Source of the DNA: Pacificibacter maritimus | GTDB taxonomy: Bacteria > Pseudomonadota > Alphaproteobacteria > Rhodobacterales > Rhodobacteraceae | Direction of reading: 5' to 3' | NCBI RefSeq assembly: GCF_003814915.1 | Contig: NZ_RKQK01000005.1 | Coordinates: 186,001-250,000 of the forward strand | Length of the DNA: 64,000 nt | Shown: piece after piece, positions 7,093-22,729 of the stretch | Layout of the letters: each line of letters starts with the position of its first letter | Position numbering within the stretch: the first letter of the stretch is position 1 | Position numbers and translations under genes: made by a program | The notes under the pieces: model-generated | The model's database searches: none | What the model saw: the letters and a program-made list of their open reading frames with translations, nothing else | Told to the model about the DNA's origin: nothing

Positions 7093-8271
<1,179 letters not shown>

Positions 8272-8293
8272 TTTACTCAGCGATATGATTAGG

Positions 8294-8320
8294 AAAGGGC
8301 GCCCGCGTGGCGCCCTTTTT
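8294..8320 (+). terminator. Intrinsic terminator of the str operon
   Basis: AAAGGGCGCC (8294-8303), five-base loop, GGCGCCCTTT (8309-8318), then more T. A weaker GGGC/GCCC hairpin with a T-run follows directly at about 8324-8342. This is the best-formed terminator in the first 10 kb. Confidence 0.9.
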
Positions 8321-8351
8321 CATGGGCAAGGCCCTTTTTTTACCAAGGGTA

Positions 8352-8380
8352 TTGCCACAACTCGATTCCCGCTGTATTGG
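8352..8380 (+). promoter_or_regulatory. Candidate promoter of the S10 operon
   Basis: TTGCCA (8352-8357), 17-base spacer, TATTGG (8375-8380), between the tuf terminator and rpsJ. Spacing is ideal but both boxes are imperfect. A promoter is expected in this interval because the str operon is terminated just before it. Confidence 0.35.
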
Positions 8381-8502
8381 GCGTGAATTCGTATTACACG
8401 AAGTCTACGGGTGAGATTCGTCTTGTCCAATTTGGGTTCGATGTGGGAGTGCAATAAGGTGCTTCGACCTCTCAACTTCAAAGCCTAAACGGAGGCATTG
8501 CA

Positions 8503-8811
8503 ATGCAAAGCCAAAACATCCGCATTCGGTTGAAGGCCTTTGATTTCCGCGTTCTTGACGCATCTACACAGGAAATCGTGAACACTGCTAAGCGCACCGG
8601 CGCTCAAGTACGTGGCCCGATCCCACTGCCAAACAAAATCGAAAAATTCACTGTTTTGCGTGGTCCACACGTTGACAAGAAATCCCGCGATCAGTTCGAG
8701 ATCCGTACGCACAAGCGTCTTCTCGACATCGTAGACCCAACACCGCAAACAGTAGACGCGCTGATGAAGCTCGACCTTGCTGCCGGCGTTGACGTCGAAA
8801 TCAAAGTATAA
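8503..8811 (+). CDS. rpsJ: 30S ribosomal protein S10
   Basis: 102 residues, standard length. S10 is a 30S head protein that also acts in transcription antitermination as NusE. It starts [19 protein letters not shown] and carries the conserved [20 protein letters not shown] loop and the [16 protein letters not shown] segment. It is the first gene of the S10 cluster, with an ACGGAGG-type ribosome site; rplC follows 14 bases after the stop. Confidence 0.98.
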
Positions 8812-9551: not shown

Positions 9552-10168
9552 AACTTGACGTAATCAAACTTGACGGCGAAAAAGCTGGCACATTGGATCT
9601 GGACGAAGCTCTCTTCGGTCTTGAGCCACGTGCTGACATTCTTCACCGTGTGGTTCGCTGGCAGCGCAACAAAGCGCAAGCTGGTACACACAAGGTAAAG
9701 ACACGCTCAGAAGTTAGCTACTCCACGAAGAAGATCTACCGTCAAAAAGGTACTGGTGGCGCACGTCACGGGTCCCGCAAGGCGCCGATCTTCCGCAAAG
9801 GTGGTATCTACAAAGGTCCTACACCGCGTTCGCATGGTCACGAGCTTACGAAGAAATTCCGTAAACTTGGCCTCAAGCACGCGCTCTCCGCGAAAGCTGG
9901 AGCAGGTAACCTCGTGATCCTCGACGACGCCAAATTGGCTGGTGCGAAGACTGCGGTTCTTGCAAAAGCTGTCAAAGAGCAGGGCTGGAAACGCGTTCTT
10001 ATCATTGATGGTGCTGACATCGACGCAAACCTCAAAGCTGCTGCGGCAAACTTGACTGGTGTTGATATCCTGCCAACAATGGGCGCAAACGTATACGACA
10101 TCCTGAAACGTGACACTCTCGTGCTCACAAAATCAGCTGTCGAAGCTCTGGAGGCTCGCCTCAAATGA
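9548..10168 (+). CDS. rplD: 50S ribosomal protein L4
   Basis: 206 residues. L4 lines the peptide exit tunnel. The tunnel-tip loop is visible as [19 protein letters not shown] followed by the [15 protein letters not shown] stretch. It overlaps rplC by four bases and rplW by four bases (ATGA in both), so the three are probably translated in a coupled manner. In enterobacteria L4 regulates the S10 operon through the leader; no such leader structure was recognised here. Confidence 0.97.
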
Positions 10169-10461
10169 CCACTAAATCAGAACTCTACGACGTAATTCGT
10201 AAGCCTATCATCACTGAGAAAGCCACTATGGCTTCCGAAAATGGTGCGGTTGTTTTCGAAGTTGCGATCGACTCTAACAAGCCACAAATCAAAGAAGCCG
10301 TTGAAACGCTCTTTGGTGTGAAAGTTAAAGCCGTGAACACATCGATCACAAAAGGTAAAGCAAAACGCTTCCGCGGGATGCTCGGCAAACGCAAAGACGT
10401 TAAAAAAGCCTACGTGACACTCGAAGAAGGCAACTCCATCGACGTGTCCACTGGTCTCTAA
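10165..10461 (+). CDS. rplW: 50S ribosomal protein L23
   Basis: 98 residues. L23 sits at the tunnel exit and docks trigger factor and SRP. The conserved [15 protein letters not shown] start and the [19 protein letters not shown] segment are present. It would normally be followed directly by rplB. Here a strong intrinsic terminator, a foreign-looking nuclease gene and about 1.25 kb separate the two. It overlaps rplD by four bases. Confidence 0.97.
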
Positions 10462-10491
10462 ATCCTTTCGGATTTGACTGGTTAGAAATTG

Positions 10492-10523
10492 AAAAGCCCT
10501 CCGAGCGATCGGGGGGCTTTTTT
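10492..10523 (+). terminator. Strong intrinsic terminator after rplW, inside the S10 gene series
   Basis: Twelve-pair stem AAAAGCCCTCCG (10492-10503) with CGGGGGGCTTTT (10510-10521), one T-G wobble, six-base loop, six T. It would end the rpsJ-rplC-rplD-rplW transcript, so rplB and later genes need a separate promoter or readthrough. Confidence 0.9.
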
Positions 10524-10643
10524 GCGGTCAGTTCGTATTCCTCCTAGAAAGAGTTGCTCTGCTAGGAATGTTGAAGCGTATATTGCTGTCAGGTAAAAAC
10601 GAGCTATCGGCATAGAAGCGCCATATTTTACGGAAAGTCCCAA

Positions 10644-11555
10644 ATGAATAAAGACGAACATATCCTGCGCGTTCTGAGAAAAATCGCACACAAGAAATAT
10701 GAGAGCTTCGTTATTTCAAGAATTGTTCAACAAATTTTTGCAACCGATATCAAATTTGTATGTCAGCAAATGGTTCGACGACCAAATGGGCATAATGCTT
10801 TATTGGATATTTATTTTCCCCAAGTGAAGCTGTCCCTAGAAATTAATGAAGGATACCATGACAGCGAGGAGCAAAAGCGCTTAGATGAAATGCGCTCCCG
10901 TGATGTAGTTCAAGCGGCAGATATTGATATAATATTCCTTCCGGTGATGGACAGTGGTAGGTTAAAGTCGCTTGATGAAATTGCCAGTGATACGGACGAA
11001 TTTTTGAAGTGCCTGTATAGCAAAGTTGACGAGATAAAGGGTCTCAACGACTGGCGGCCTTGGGATTTTGAAACTGAATTTACGGCAGCACCGCACCTCA
11101 AGCGCGGGTATATCGATGCCAACGAGGACGTATTGCTGCGCAAACACACTGATGCCATTGAGCTGTTCGGCATAAAGCTCAGGGGGCATCAAAGTGGCAG
11201 CTGGAAAACGCCAAAGCGGTTCGGTCTGGCTATGGCATGGTTTCCCAGGCTTTATGAAAATGACAAGTGGGATAATTCACTTTCTCCAGATGGTTCCAAA
11301 ATTGTGGAGAAAAACAAAGACGAGCGTGGTGCTCAGATTCTCAACTATGATAAATACGGACCAAACCATCGCCGCGCGGTTTTTGCGAGAAAGGAAGAAC
11401 CTCTAATCAGGACACTGTACAGATTTGTTGGGGTGTTTGAGTACTCACTTAGTGAGTCTAAAGAGAGAGGGGCGGCGATTTATAATAAGGTCTGCGACAG
11501 GATTGAATTGGGCGATCACAATCGTATTTCCCCACAAAACCCCACTCCCCACTAG
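10644..11555 (+). CDS. PvuRts1I/AbaSI-type modification-dependent restriction endonuclease
   Basis: 303 residues. The N-terminal half looks like the Vsr-type PD-(D/E)XK nuclease domain of the PvuRts1I family. It opens DEHILRVLRKIAHKKYESFV; then come FVCQQ (38-42), D55 in LLDIYFP and the E66-I-N68 core in LSLEINEGYHDS. The C-terminal half, about 150-290, resembles the SRA-like base-flipping domain: GYIDAN, FGIKLRGHQSGSW, MAWFPRLYE, LSPDGSKI and RTLYRFVGVF. Known members cut DNA containing 5-hydroxymethylcytosine or its glucosylated form, as in T-even-like phages. It stands alone, with no methylase or second subunit nearby, between rplW and rplB. Ribosome site GGAAAG. It uses AGA, AGG and ATA codons and is more AT-rich than its neighbours, suggesting transfer. 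Family call is confident; exact base specificity is inferred. Confidence 0.8.
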   Translation: MNKDEHILRVLRKIAHKKYESFVISRIVQQIFATDIKFVCQQMVRRPNGHNALLDIYFPQVKLSLEINEGYHDSEEQKRLDEMRSRDVVQAADIDIIFLPVMDSGRLKSLDEIASDTDEFLKCLYSKVDEIKGLNDWRPWDFETEFTAAPHLKRGYIDANEDVLLRKHTDAIELFGIKLRGHQSGSWKTPKRFGLAMAWFPRLYENDKWDNSLSPDGSKIVEKNKDERGAQILNYDKYGPNHRRAVFARKEEPLIRTLYRFVGVFEYSLSESKERGAAIYNKVCDRIELGDHNRISPQNPTPH

Positions 11556-11627
11556 ACACCCAATCCCCCCTCTGGTACTCCCCACAAATCTTATGGCTAC
11601 AGATTCGCTCTGTGGCCTTTTGATATA

Positions 11628-11655
11628 TGACATTGGGCACCTACGGGGGCCTACA
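11628..11655 (+). promoter_or_regulatory. Leader element ahead of rplB, also seen ahead of rpmC
   Basis: The segment contains TGACATT followed by CCTACGGGGGCCTAC. A near copy (TGACATT, then CCTAACGGGGGCCCAC) is found at 16728-16772 before rpmC. Both sit where a ribosomal operon must restart after an inserted block. Function is inferred: promoter, leader or regulator site. Confidence 0.3.
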
Positions 11656-11714: not shown

Positions 11715-12554
11715 ATGGCACTAAAGTCGTACAAACCAACGACGCCTGGCCAGCGCGGGCTGGTTCTGATCGACCGTTCGGAGCTTTGGAAAGGACGTCC
11801 AGTCAAATCCCTTACTCAGGGTCTGACAAAAAAGGGCGGCCGGAACAACACCGGACGGATCACGATGCGTCGCATCGGCGGGGGCGCTAAGCGTCTTTAC
11901 CGCATCGTCGATTTCAAGCGTAACAAATTTGATGTACCAGCAGTTGTAGAACGGATCGAATATGACCCGAACCGCACAGCGTTCATCGCCCTAATCAAAT
12001 ACGAAGACGGAGAGCAAGCATACATCATCGCTCCTCAGCGTCTTGCAGTTGGTGACAAAGTCATCGCATCTGCAAAAGCTGACGTGAAGCCTGGTAATGC
12101 TATGCCGTTCTCTGGTCTGCCAATCGGTACTATCGTCCACAACGTTGAGATGAAGCCAGGCAAAGGCGGTCAAATCGCTCGTGCTGCTGGTACTTACGCT
12201 CAGTTCGTTGGTCGTGACGGTGGCTACGCTCAGATCCGCCTTTCTTCTGGCGAGTTGCGCATGGTTCGCCAAGAATGCATCGCAACTGTTGGCGCAGTAT
12301 CCAACCCTGACAACTCCAACCAAAACTTTGGTAAAGCTGGTCGTAACCGTCACAAGGGCATCCGCCCATCTGTGCGTGGTGTTGTTATGAACCCGATCGA
12401 TCACCCGCACGGTGGTGGTGAAGGTCGTACCAGCGGTGGTCGTCACCCAGTTACACCTTGGGGTAAGCCAACTAAAGGCGCGAAAACGCGTAAAAACAAA
12501 GCGACGGATAAATACATTATTCGTTCGCGTCATGCTCGGAAGAAGGGTCGCTAG
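11715..12554 (+). CDS. rplB: 50S ribosomal protein L2
   Basis: 279 residues. L2 bridges the subunits and is needed for peptidyl transfer. It starts [20 protein letters not shown]. The C-terminal hallmark [20 protein letters not shown] contains the conserved catalytic-region His, followed by the basic tail. It begins the second part of the S10 series, after the nuclease insertion. rpsS follows after only three bases, so rplB-rpsS-rplV-rpsC-rplP is one tight unit. Confidence 0.98.
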
Positions 12555-14665: not shown

Positions 14666-15427
14666 ATGCGCCAACAGATTGCCGAAATCCTAGATCGTAA
14701 GGTCACCCAAAATATCATCATGGGCGTGATCTTATTCAACGCCGTCATTTTGGGACTGGAAACATCTGACGCGGTGATGGCGCGGGCAGGTGGGCTGATC
14801 AAAGCTTTGGACATTGCCTGTCTCACCATTTTTGTGATCGAAATCGCAGCCAAAATCTATGCGCGCCGCTTGGCCTTTTTCAAATCGGGTTGGGGCCTGT
14901 TTGATGTGGTGATCGTCGGTATTTCGCTTTTGCCCTTTGGCCAAGGTATCGCCGTGCTGCGCGCCTTGCGCATTTTTCGGTTGCTACGCGTTATTTCCGT
15001 CGTGCCATCCCTGCGCCGCGTGGTCGAAGCCTTTATCAAAGCCTTACCTGGCATGGCATCGGTGTTTTTCCTCACCGCAATTATCTTTTACATCGGTGCC
15101 GTAATGGCGACGAAACTTTATGGCGACACCTTCCCTGATTGGTTCGGCACCTTGGGTGGATCGCTTTACTCGTTGTTCCAGATCATGACGCTGGAAAGCT
15201 GGTCCATGGGCATCGTGCGTCCGGTCATGGAGGTCCACCCGAATTCGTGGTTGTTCTTTATTCCGTTCATCTTGGTGACAGCTTTCGCGGTAATGAACTT
15301 GGTCGTCGGTCTGATCGTCAACTCCATGCAAGACGCCCACGCAGCAGAGGAGCTGGCCGAAACCGATGCCTATCGCGAAGACATCACAGCACGCCTTGAT
15401 CGGATTGAGCGCGCTTTGGAGCGGTAG
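14666..15427 (+). CDS. Voltage-gated sodium channel, NavBac type
   Basis: 253 residues: one six-helix ion-channel subunit that forms a tetramer in the inner membrane. S1-S3 lie at about 15-90. S4 at about 97-118 has gating arginines at every third position (R99, R102, R105, R108). The pore loop carries FQIMTLESWSMGIVRP with TLESW at 175-179, the Na+-selective filter of NaChBac-like channels; S6 is rich in F and V. A short charged C-terminal coiled coil ends the protein (LAETDAYREDITARLDRIER). An AGGAG site precedes the ATG. It lies alone between rplP and rpmC. In other bacteria such channels serve motility and pH/Na+ homeostasis; the role here is inferred. Confidence 0.93.
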   Translation: MRQQIAEILDRKVTQNIIMGVILFNAVILGLETSDAVMARAGGLIKALDIACLTIFVIEIAAKIYARRLAFFKSGWGLFDVVIVGISLLPFGQGIAVLRALRIFRLLRVISVVPSLRRVVEAFIKALPGMASVFFLTAIIFYIGAVMATKLYGDTFPDWFGTLGGSLYSLFQIMTLESWSMGIVRPVMEVHPNSWLFFIPFILVTAFAVMNLVVGLIVNSMQDAHAAEELAETDAYREDITARLDRIERALER

Positions 15428-15456
15428 GGCATAGGGTGAAAATTAAACAGCTCGTT

Positions 15457-15945
15457 TTAGACATCGTTGATGAATTTCAGTCCGTCGATAAGTGGGTTGT
15501 ATATCGATCTATGAAGTTGGCTTCGCTTTGTGTACTTTAGTCCTAGCTGGAGAAGTGTAGTTCTAGGTAGCACGAATGGGCCCTTGTCTAGCAAATTCGC
15601 TGACTTGAGGCAGGACTTCATATTACTCGTATCTGGGAACCTTCGAGCTGTTCGCATCAGTGTTGCTTCTCCAACTAATCCGCAATCGAAGTCTATCCAC
15701 GCATGTCCTTCCCAGTCGACTAATGATTTGGGTCTCTTGGGAAAAGCCTTCTTGTATTGAAATGCCTTAACTCCGTTGCAAGATAGAGACCCTAGAGCGA
15801 TAGAATGCGGTATTTCATCTTGATCCAATTCTGACGATATTAGCGCGCAAACAGCTACACATTGGCTTGCAGTGTTTGGGTGTGTTTTTAACATATCCCG
15901 CGAAATTTCCATGAAGCGCACGGCAGCAGAATCAATATCTGTCAA
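15457..15945 (-). CDS. Unknown protein with possible Cys-His-Asp (transglutaminase-like) core
   Basis: 162 residues, family not recognised. No signal peptide or membrane helix is visible. A helical N-terminus contains C29 and C33 (SQCVAVCALIS), and a later segment reads EGHAWIDFDCGLVGEATL with H81, D85 and D87. The order Cys ... GHAWxxF/D is what transglutaminase-like and papain-like cysteine enzymes show, so a catalytic Cys-His-Asp triad is possible but unproven. It is encoded four bases downstream of the oxygenase gene, on the same strand, so the two probably form a small operon inside the ribosomal cluster. Codon use is less biased than in the ribosomal genes. Confidence 0.55.
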   Translation of the reverse strand: MTDIDSAAVRFMEISRDMLKTHPNTASQCVAVCALISSELDQDEIPHSIALGSLSCNGVKAFQYKKAFPKRPKSLVDWEGHAWIDFDCGLVGEATLMRTARRFPDTSNMKSCLKSANLLDKGPFVLPRTTLLQLGLKYTKRSQLHRSIYNPLIDGLKFINDV

Positions 15946-15949
15946 AAAA

Positions 15950-16570
15950 CTACTCCCAACGGTAATTAAAGCTCACAGAAATACGGTGATCTTCGGACAT
16001 ATTCATCGGCACTTCGTGGCGCAGCCAGCTTTCCCACAACAGCACATCCCCTACGGCGGGTTTCACGTAGACGAAATTCTTCATCTCTTCGCGGGCGTCT
16101 TTGATGCGGGGTGGGGCGGCCATCATCATCGCGTGACGCGGATCTTCGAGTTTGAGGGCAGAGGCGCCTTCGGGCATGGCAACGTAAGTTGTGCCAGAGA
16201 TCACAGAATGCGGATGGATGTGGGCGGAATGCGCGCCACCTTCGGGCAGAATGTTGATCCAGATGTCTTCCAAAACCAGTTTGCGATCGTCCAGATCGAA
16301 TTGCAGGTCGGCAGCAAAGGCTGCGACATGTTGATCAAGGCTGTCGACAATGTCTTTGAAAATCGGAAAGCGCCACGCGAGGTCCGTCAGAGACGCGTAG
16401 CTGGTGTAGCCCGGAAAATCATTGGCCTCACACCAGTCTTGGCCCGCCTCGTCATCTTCGGCGATGGACAGGCAGGAGTTTTCCAATTCATCCGCGTCCA
16501 CAGGCGTGCCAAATTCGGATAAGGCCGCGCGGTAAAGGCGGGTGACAAAGAGAGAAGTGATATCGGACAT
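15950..16570 (-). CDS. Putative 2OG-Fe(II) oxygenase (TIGR02466 family)
   Basis: 206 residues. The family signature is clear: WCEANDFPGYTSYASLTDL, DIWINILPEGGAHSAHIHP (His 114-121), ISGTTYVAMPEGA, LEDPR, and the late SWLRHEVPMN with His185, followed by Arg196 in RISVSFNYRW. The paired early His cluster, late His and terminal Arg fit a double-stranded beta-helix that binds iron and 2-oxoglutarate. The substrate of this family is not established. The gene reads against the ribosomal operons, between rplP and rpmC, and is followed by the unknown gene at 15457. Because other 2OG oxygenases hydroxylate ribosomal proteins, a ribosomal target is a possible but untested idea. Confidence 0.8.
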   Translation of the reverse strand: MSDITSLFVTRLYRAALSEFGTPVDADELENSCLSIAEDDEAGQDWCEANDFPGYTSYASLTDLAWRFPIFKDIVDSLDQHVAAFAADLQFDLDDRKLVLEDIWINILPEGGAHSAHIHPHSVISGTTYVAMPEGASALKLEDPRHAMMMAAPPRIKDAREEMKNFVYVKPAVGDVLLWESWLRHEVPMNMSEDHRISVSFNYRWE

Positions 16571-20948: not shown

Positions 20949-21140
20949 ATGGCTAAAACTATCGTTGTAAAACAGATCGGTTCTCCGATCCGTCGCCCAC
21001 AAGATCAACGTGCTACGTTGGTTGGCCTTGGCCTCAACAAAATGCACAAGACACGTGAGTTGGAAGATACTCCAGCGGTTCGCGGCATGGTGCGTAAGAT
21101 TTCTCACATGGTAGAAATCATCGAAGAGCGCGACAATTAA
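20949..21140 (+). CDS. rpmD: 50S ribosomal protein L30
   Basis: 63 residues, normal for L30. It reads [20 protein letters not shown] and [20 protein letters not shown], the conserved core. Followed by a terminator instead of rplO, which comes 1.6 kb later after two unrelated genes. Confidence 0.97.
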
Positions 21141-21170
21141 GTCGATCTTTTTGATCTAAAGCTTTTGGAA

Positions 21171-21201
21171 AACGCCTCGTTGGAAACAGCGGGGCGTTTT
21201 T
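21171..21201 (+). terminator. Intrinsic terminator after rpmD
   Basis: AACGCCTCG (21171-21179) pairs with CGGGGCGTT (21190-21198), one wobble, then T. Its core, 21175-21194, is identical over 20 bases to 22097-22116 in the terminator of the next gene. Confidence 0.85.
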
Positions 21202-21282
21202 GTATTTGCGGGCTCACGGCGTCGTGACATTGCCGCGGGACGGTTGCGTGCTATCTATTGCCTAATTCATGGAGGTTGAAAG

Positions 21283-22065
21283 ATGACACAAACACGCCGT
21301 TCCTTTTTAACGCATGCTGGCGCTGCCGTCGGTTTGATTACAGTATTGCCGTTTTCCGCGCGCGCTGCTGGCCATATGTCTGATGTTTTCGCAGATGGTG
21401 CGATCACAGTGCATCCGATTGCGCATGCATCCTTTGTTATGGAAACGCCTGCAGGGGTGATTTACGTTGATCCGGTGGGGGATGCTGCAAGCTATGAAAG
21501 CCTGCCCTCTGCCGACTACATCCTGATTACTCATGAGCATGGCGATCACTATAATGTTGATACTTTGACGGCGCTCAAGGGGGATGCGACCCAGATGATC
21601 ACCAATCCTGCGGTCTTTGAAAAACTACCCGAAGGGTTAAGAAACAACACGCAAGTTTTGGCCAATGGCGAATCGGCCGCTTGGGGTGAAATCGGGGTTG
21701 ACGCGATCCCTGCCTATAACACCACTGAAGAGCGCATGAATTTTCACCCAGAAGGGCGCGATAACGGGTATATTGTAACCTTGGATGGTTTCCGCACTTA
21801 CATTTCTGGCGACACTGAGCCTACGCCTGAAATGCTGGCGCTGACAGATATTGATCTGGCGTTCCTCTGTATGAACCTGCCATTCACGCAAACAGCGCAG
21901 CAAGCAGCAGAGGCGGTTAAAGTGTTTAAACCGACCTATGTCTACCCATACCACTACCAAGGCCGCGATGGCGGGACACAAGATCCTGAACAATTCGCGG
22001 AACTTGTCGGGGGCGCGTCTGAGGTCAAAATCGGCGATTGGTACGGTGATCACAGCCACGGCTAG
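21283..22065 (+). CDS. Tat-exported metallo-beta-lactamase-fold hydrolase (UlaG-like)
   Basis: 260 residues. A Tat signal is visible: TRRSFLT at residues 4-10, a hydrophobic stretch, and ARAAG near 26-30, so the protein is likely periplasmic. The metal site THEHGDHYN (H84, H86, D88, H89) and later ISGDTEPTPEM and YPYHYQGRDGG fit the UlaG-like branch of the metallo-beta-lactamase fold. The substrate is unknown. It sits between rpmD and rplO with its own terminator. GGAGG lies nine bases before the ATG. Confidence 0.87.
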   Translation: MTQTRRSFLTHAGAAVGLITVLPFSARAAGHMSDVFADGAITVHPIAHASFVMETPAGVIYVDPVGDAASYESLPSADYILITHEHGDHYNVDTLTALKGDATQMITNPAVFEKLPEGLRNNTQVLANGESAAWGEIGVDAIPAYNTTEERMNFHPEGRDNGYIVTLDGFRTYISGDTEPTPEMLALTDIDLAFLCMNLPFTQTAQQAAEAVKVFKPTYVYPYHYQGRDGGTQDPEQFAELVGGASEVKIGDWYGDHSHG

Positions 22066-22093
22066 AATGGAATAATCTACCTGAACAGTCTGA

Positions 22094-22124
22094 AGCCCTC
22101 GTTGGAAACAGCGGGGGTTTTTTT
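22094..22124 (+). terminator. Intrinsic terminator after the metallo-hydrolase gene
   Basis: CCCTCG and GTTG pair with CAGC and GGGGG around GAAA, followed by seven T. It shares a 20-base identical block with the rpmD terminator. Confidence 0.8.
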
Positions 22125-22280
22125 ATATCGGATAGAGCTATGCACGCGCTGCATGGCGGGTTTGGGAATCTAATGCTACCTAAAAGTTTTCAAACCGCCT
22201 AAATGATCATCAACACCCCAGACGGGGATGTCGAAAAATAGACGCAATGAAAACGTTCAAATCTTATAAGGTTCCGCACA

Positions 22281-22496
22281 ATGGCACACGTAACAACATT
22301 CTCAACACCAGCTCACACTTCAGTATTCGCTTCTATCGTATCTGCATTCTCAGCAGCTGTATCAGCATTCAAAGAAGCGCGTGCAATCGAAGCAACATAC
22401 ACTAAATTGAGCGCTTTGTCTGACCGTGAATTGGCTGACATTGGCTTGAACCGCGGCTCAATCTACGAAGCTGCAATGGGTACAAAGCTTAAATAA
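22281..22496 (+). CDS. DUF1127 small protein
   Basis: 71 residues. The C-terminal half, KLSALSDRELADIGLNRGSI, is the DUF1127 motif. The N-terminal half is Ser/Ala/Thr-rich with a helix of alternating A and V. DUF1127 proteins of alphaproteobacteria are abundant small proteins, some linked to RNA turnover and phosphate or carbon metabolism. The role here is unknown. Its codon use is strongly biased, like that of the ribosomal genes, which suggests high expression. Confidence 0.85.
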   Translation: MAHVTTFSTPAHTSVFASIVSAFSAAVSAFKEARAIEATYTKLSALSDRELADIGLNRGSIYEAAMGTKLK

Positions 22497-22729
22497 GCTT
22501 TTACCACAGTATTTAGGTTGGATGCCTTGCGTTTATGGTCTGCAGTTTTGCGGGCCATTTTGCATTTTAAGGCCGCCTTTTAAAACTGGGCAATGCCAAT
22601 AGCAGGCTTGAATAGCGCGCGGAACTTGCGTATACGCGCCAAGTGGGTTTTTAGCCCATCAGAATCATTAATTTTACGCCGTGTTTGGCCTTCCGTCGCT
22701 GGGGGTCAGTTCCGGCAAGGAGAAGCGAC

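Follow-up and report, generated by a model that had tools for sequence, protein, structure and literature searches.

The closest described relatives of the enzyme discussed here are PvuRts1I, whose gene is carried by the conjugative plasmid Rts1 of Proteus vulgaris, and AbaSI. The cutting distance in the PvuRts1I family is 11–13 nt (PMC4027163, PMC4157451), and PvuRts1I cuts DNA with 5-hydroxymethylcytosine (5hmC), 5-methylcytosine (5mC) or cytosine in a ratio of 2000:8:1 (PMC4157451). Glu20, Asp57 and Glu68 are the candidates for its catalytic residues; an Asp stands where a lysine is usual, Lys17 is close by, and the base-pocket mutants Trp215Ala and Glu228Ala lost activity (PMC4027163). A second study describes Asp57, Leu58, Pro61, Glu68, Asp70, Glu71 and His74 as absolutely conserved; its mutants had all lost activity except Asp70Ala, which retained some (PMC4157451).

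Two descriptions of gene exchange are also relevant to the site of the gene. The minimal mobile elements of Neisseria are different whole-gene cassettes found between the same two conserved genes; an integrase is not needed, and restriction genes are often carried (PMC3898611). Integration hotspots without recognizable mobile elements have been described from within-species comparisons in 80 species, in a paper whose main text does not contain the word "ribosomal" (PMC5635113).

The window analysed here is a stretch of 64,000 nt from the genome of Pacificibacter maritimus (3.08 Mb, 99.94% complete). An intact frame of 303 amino acids (10644–11555, forward strand, like the other junction features given below) lies, just where a first-pass annotation of the sequence had placed it, between rplW (10165–10461), the conserved left flank and tblastn anchor, and rplB (11715–12554), the conserved right flank and anchor for junction measurements. 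It is the sole match for the endonuclease in its own genome and occupies a ribosomal junction on a 255-kb contig (C5), in contrast to the plasmid location of the PvuRts1I gene.

The product is an ordinary, though divergent, member of the known PvuRts1I/AbaSI family, with a nuclease domain (residues 1–140, approximately) and an SRA domain (about 146–292). Pfam recognizes both, as PvuRts1I-like_N (PF21598, residues 6–90, 9.1e-26; 91 bits against a cut-off of 27) and SRA (PF18491, residues 151–289, 1.5e-28, above cut-off), and the PADLOC model mREase_II matches residues 1–289 at 3.6e-81. By sequence, the nearest solved structures are PvuRts1I (about 3e-53) and AbaSI (phmmer, 1.4e-40), both over approximately the whole length; identity to PvuRts1I is 34–36%, and the two domains, the frame of the active site and the pocket are the same. 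An AlphaFold2 model built from an alignment of 47 sequences (mean pLDDT 88.7, pTM 0.82) gave as its best Foldseek matches PvuRts1I (4oq2, 2.8e-27) and AbaSI (4par, 9.6e-27), the next different entry standing at 2.5e-3. Superposition of this model by VIA-align yielded a Z of 25.3 with AbaSI (rmsd 4.3, 285 residues aligned, 28% identity), which indicates a whole-length match of the predicted fold, and of 25.1 with PvuRts1I (rmsd 3.2, 261 aligned); AbaSI differs in that some 20 additional residues follow its EGHH motif. The modelled nuclease domain resembles Vsr endonuclease (1cw0, Z 8.5) and modelled residues 146–292 resemble the SRA domains of AspBHI (Z 7.4) and LpnPI (Z 7.3). Since the profile, sequence and fold matches span the whole length, chance resemblance is ruled out. 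The earlier proposal of a PvuRts1I/AbaSI-type enzyme with nuclease and SRA-like halves is therefore borne out by Pfam, PADLOC, PDB and fold matches alike, and the motifs on which it was based (D55, E66-x-N68, WFPRLYE and LSPDGSKI) are all present in the frame.

The gene itself looks recently acquired, judging from its distribution and composition. No homologue was found in any of the 19 congeners (one of which, G005, is 85% complete), and only one of 60 relatives, a member of another family (G051), possesses one, at 38% identity. The scan of genomes with the single protein gave no relative; these were recovered with an alignment-based scan. AGA, AGG and ATA account for 4.6% of its codons; conserved window genes average 0.13% below 29 kb (35 genes) and 0.62% beyond it (19 genes, none higher than 1.9%). 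Its G+C content of 44.6% is about three standard deviations lower than in the same two sets, which average 50.7% and 51.7% (sd 2.2 in both). The foreign codons, higher AT content and acquisition read from the letters in the first-pass annotation are thus upheld, and an old, vertically inherited gene was rejected because the homologue is absent from 19 of 19 congeners. All matches in plasmid (49) and phage (10) records fall below 60% identity, and the family PDLC03210, detected in seven genomes of the class, is near full length only in P. maritimus and G051, the other five matches being short and partial.

For comparison of the surroundings, 90 other loci of the enzyme family were collected (80 of 98 confirmed genome loci, together with 10 viral loci). 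Twelve proteins encoded in the ribosomal region (from the S10 cluster, the ion channel, the oxygenase and a 162-aa ORF described below) were compared with these loci, whose flanks reach at most 6 kb on either side, and none matched; hence a second ribosomal address was not seen. One Rhodobacteraceae homologue (L132, 6001–6861) stands beside genes that read, from their sequence, like atpC and atpD, and loci L129 and L133 are also found among housekeeping-like genes. On the Thioclava plasmid p2 (L122, 5989–10297) the homologue adjoins genes annotated as Mu-transposase C-terminal-domain, TniB and TniQ proteins, which suggests that it is carried by a Tn7/Tn5053-like element.

The first-pass annotation had described the gene as lying inside the S10 operon, which holds for gene order and probably not for transcription. 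On the 3′ side of rplW is a strong hairpin with a T-run (stem 10491–10522, −23.4 kcal/mol, z −4.13), built on the inverted repeat 10492–10504/10509–10521; on the strength of this repeat and its folding energy it was taken as an intrinsic terminator (10491–10523) and as the left edge of the variable segment. The 10 congeners compared have a G+C-rich hairpin with a T-run at the same place. On the right, an L2-Alphaproteobacteria ribosomal protein leader (RF03142, 11635–11712, 59.3 bits, E 1.4e-12) immediately precedes rplB; the assignment is firm only for some relatives, because the Rfam threshold was reached in five of 13 related loci. Between the two lies the variable or cargo segment (10524–11546), beyond whose edges, judged by eye on side-by-side sequences, similarity to G008, G009 and G010 sets in. 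The closest congeners have in common the terminator on the left and the sequence from about a CTAGAC box rightward, and differ in the middle. This box, which contains the stop codon of the endonuclease (11553–11555), opens the conserved start of the rplB unit (11547–11634), where we infer the promoter to be, although a scan for sigma-70 consensus sequences found a promoter neither here nor before the endonuclease. A GATTCG-containing stretch at 11595–11617, upstream of the L2 leader, is common to 17 of 18 aligned rows (G017 being the exception); in P. maritimus it forms a terminator-like hairpin, which may end cargo transcripts or belong to the 5′ end of rplB. With a terminator on one side and the start of the rplB unit with its leader on the other, the endonuclease gene probably occupies the space separating two transcription units and does not lie inside one. 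Insertion breaking a transcript was rejected, as the gene is flanked by the rplW terminator and the L2 leader.

The rplW-rplB junction is a recurrent insertion site. In the genus, with one genome per species compared, the gap could be measured in 16 of the 19 congeners and ranged from 230 to 1862 nt (stop codon included here and in the wider survey). The remainder were G010 and G005, in which the two genes fall on separate contigs (the contig with rplB in G010 has no rplW in some 26.7 kb of upstream sequence), and G015, in which rplW was not found. Across the Rhodobacteraceae, rplB was located in 106 other genomes, 79 of which were examined; two contig-end loci were dropped, leaving 77 (60 sequence stretches and 17 loci). 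Both genes were present in 68 of these, with 37 gaps of 27–394 nt and 31 of 483–5520 nt; in seven no rplW lay within 6 kb, and two reached the end of a contig. A search of PMC full text for this junction as an insertion site returned nothing relevant among the matches listed. Cargo ORFs were called mechanically in both surveys, and not all of them can be genes because some overlap on opposite strands. Eleven ORFs of at least 100 aa were found at the junction in 10 of 13 genomes, the other three having none; grouped by blastp (1e-6, half of the shorter length), all 11 were singletons, with no family common to each other or to other junctions.

As a control, 53 junctions were measured, bounded by 54 genes of the window that are conserved in six or more of 12 congeners (8–12 genomes per junction, the window being covered to about 50 kb). 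Seven were recurrently variable, differing by more than 600 nt, and all are within the first 23.2 kb: ORF 5–1570|rpsL, tuf|rpsJ, rplW|rplB, rplP|channel, channel|oxygenase, oxygenase|rpmC and rpmD|rplO, several of the gene names being assigned from gene order. Four further junctions passed 600 nt owing to one genome each. That the variable seven belong to the ribosomal cluster region, and that junctions within tight operons scarcely vary, also suits a simpler reading, which we regard as a serious possibility though somewhat short of an even chance: the gap would be tolerant intergenic space, in which chance insertions survive at a unit boundary and no exchange process of its own need operate. 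Other spacers of more than 100 nt in the window are, however, near constant (27634|28385, 241–344 nt; 33185|34210, 222–315 nt). In addition, the DNA of rplC, rplD, rplW and rplB is 92.6–97.0% identical to that of the close congeners G008 and G009, a degree of flank identity that generally suffices for recombination, yet the cargo has been turned over entirely, which suggests exchange.

Other parts of the cluster vary as well. The tuf-rpsJ (8271–8503) and rpmD-rplO (21140–22685) junctions differ by kilobases among congeners and have some cargo families in common. Between rplP and rpmC, the ribosomal cluster is split by the genes of an ion-channel protein (PF00520) and of a 2OG-Fe(II) oxygenase (PF13759; together 14666–16570). 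This holds for P. maritimus and for all 12 congeners measured, and the spacers around the two genes vary. A 162-aa ORF on the reverse strand between these two conserved genes (15457–15945) resembles the endonuclease gene in its foreign composition, with 4.9% AGA/AGG/ATA codons and 44.6% G+C, and gave no Pfam or PADLOC match; unrelated frames take its place in G008, G009 and G016, and it probably represents another recent insertion into the cluster.

With different whole-gene cargoes between the same conserved flanks, the rplW-rplB slot is, on the best reading, similar to a minimal mobile element. The Neisseria elements were compared between strains, whereas the slot was compared between species and genera and lies between ribosomal-protein genes. 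A minimal mobile element enters by homologous recombination only; repeats at the P. maritimus site are of no more than chance size, and other sites have transposase-like genes. The concept of a hotspot without recognizable mobile elements also fits the slot.

With respect to the enzyme, the residues reported as needed for activity are kept. The seven called absolutely conserved in PvuRts1I correspond to D55, I56, P59, E66, N68, E69 and H72; the catalytic set K17, E20, D55, E66, E69 and H72 equals PvuRts1I K17, E20, D57, E68, E71 and H74, and the pocket residues W199, P201, W209, N211 and E222 align with W205, P207, W215, N217 and E228. After removal of six proteins outside 255–340 aa, 84 full-length relatives from the 90 loci were aligned, and K17, E20, D55, P59, E66, E69, H72 and N211 proved invariant in all 84 and in the endonuclease. 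The constancy of D55 and P59 proves less, because the search pattern included both, as well as L, M or I at the I56 position, and the census is biased at these three; for the viral loci it is partly biased at E66–H72 too. In the pocket columns Trp is found at W199 in 82 and at W209 in 81 relatives, and Glu at E222 in 72. The main oddity of the protein is E66-x-N68, with Asn for Asp70 of PvuRts1I; Leu58 is likewise not kept, being I56 here. Among the relatives the N68 column reads D in 79, N in three, L in one and Q in one, and the I56 column L in 55, M in 23 and I in six. Because these columns vary and the Asp70Ala mutant keeps some activity, Asp70 and Leu58 do not define the family.

These two departures from residues called absolutely conserved (PMC4157451), along with the low identity to PvuRts1I, could be taken to mean that the protein belongs to the family by descent and has shifted its preference to 5mC or another base, forming a barrier to methylated foreign DNA and not to hydroxymethylated phages. 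We consider this improbable, as the named pocket residues are kept, the Leu58 position is not invariant, and the genome includes a dcm-family cytosine methyltransferase, so that cleavage at 5mC could endanger the host itself should this methyltransferase be active; on the same proviso an enzyme that spares 5mC fits this genome. A little less probable again is a protein that is catalytically dead or unexpressed, a recent insert heading for decay. Such a fate might be read from a solitary gene behind a terminator, with no consensus promoter found, many rare codons and Asn in the active-site strand; the frame is nevertheless full length, E20, D55, E66, E69 and H72 are retained, I56 is a conservative change and replacement of Asp70 by Ala is reported to leave some activity (PMC4157451).

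The remaining cargo bears on whether the slot serves defence in general. In the genus, G008 carries a MarR regulator and a deiodinase/AhpC-like protein, G018 a SocA/Panacea-like protein split over two frames, and G015 frames that resemble a transposase close to where its contig stops, together with an ALIL pseudoknot. Many congener cargo proteins have no Pfam match. Of the 18 congener cargo ORFs examined with Pfam, 10 were also put through PADLOC; the best PADLOC match was to HEC-07 in G012, a weak one at 3.2e-6, and weaker ones (4e-4 or worse) were to LmuB in G003, CARF/CasR in G008 and mad1 in G015. In other genera, 40 cargo ORFs of at least 130 aa from 25 of the 31 long gaps matched 19 Pfam families. 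Most of these are enzymes, regulators, membrane proteins or DUFs; one ORF encodes an rve integrase-core protein. At a PADLOC threshold of E 1e-5, none of the 40 matched anything but a generic CRISPR-associated 2OG model (two of 40). Known defence cargo, as represented in PADLOC-DB 2.0, hence does not recur at rplW-rplB in the manner of a defence island or hotspot. That a mobile element bearing its own integrase supplies the junction as a dedicated defence hotspot, while in keeping with the recurrent insertions, the PvuRts1I-type gene here and the SocA/Panacea-like, HEC-07 and weaker matches, is very improbable and was rejected on the cargo content of congeners and other genera; mobile-element insertion at the P. 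maritimus site was rejected as well, since direct repeats there reach only 11 nt, a chance size, and no integrase-like frame is present. Of the small recurrent defence insertion site first envisaged, recurrence thus survives, on the gaps of both genus and family (31 of 68 long in the Rhodobacteraceae), and defence as its theme is not supported by known families. Known defence genes are a minority cargo, the endonuclease being the only firm one seen, and undescribed defence genes could hide in the cargo because many of these proteins are of unknown function.

Taken together, we think it very likely that the gene encodes a solitary, Type IV-like PvuRts1I-family enzyme dependent on 5hmC or its glucosylated form, in a slot whose contents are swapped, probably by homologous recombination. 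The C-terminal SRA domain would flip out and read the modified base, and the N-terminal Vsr-like PD-(D/E)XK domain would cleave the DNA at a distance of roughly a dozen nucleotides, so destroying the DNA of phages that replace cytosine with 5hmC or glucosyl-5hmC; restriction of such phages is its likely action. A search for hydroxymethylated roseophages gave papers on other phages among the matches listed, and no phage of this host with hydroxymethylated DNA was found. Within the slot, which extends from the rplW terminator to where the rplB unit starts, small pieces of DNA, often of one or two genes, would be swapped through recombination in the conserved ribosomal flanks.

One vehicle for such pieces may be a gene transfer agent. 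RcGTA packages short DNA, and the genome possesses an RcGTA-type cluster, near complete by profile (L281, 5012–19154, contig C1), with matches for portal, protease, capsid, major tail, tape measure, distal tail, hub, NlpC and megatron; its first frame, where the terminase is expected, had no NCBIfam match. TIGR02217 occurs in 18 of 20 genomes of the genus, G007 having three matches. DNA borne by RcGTA is integrated by homologous recombination with the help of DprA and RecA (PMC10883770), and the agent of Caulobacter packages 5–15 kbp (PMC9632790). Two published points weigh against this vehicle: the success of recombination drops exponentially with divergence (PMC10883770), and agent-mediated recombination is reported to bring no selective benefit (PMC6209664). 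The gene dprA is present in P. maritimus as in all 20 genomes of the genus and, being common (10 of 14 control genomes), is weak evidence. Two congeners, G016 and G019, lack TIGR02217 yet have filled slots, with gaps of 801 and 944 nt; unless these genomes lost the agent at a later stage, it cannot be the only vehicle in every case.

The same two genomes lower the odds of a broader proposal, which we hold to be possible but unlikely, that the ribosomal cluster is a standing dock throughout the family, its terminator-to-promoter slots refilled by homologous exchange through near-identical ribosomal flanks, to a good extent via gene transfer agents. If so, a short agent package would have room for one small gene together with the flank on either side, and defence genes such as the endonuclease would travel without any mobile element. 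The endonuclease itself is a divergent and probably active addition to a family used for mapping hydroxymethylcytosine. Its setting matters more than the enzyme: a fast-changing slot is flanked by essential, slowly changing ribosomal genes, and in an agent-carrying group the rplW-rplB slot offers a defined address at which to test what agents and recombination move.
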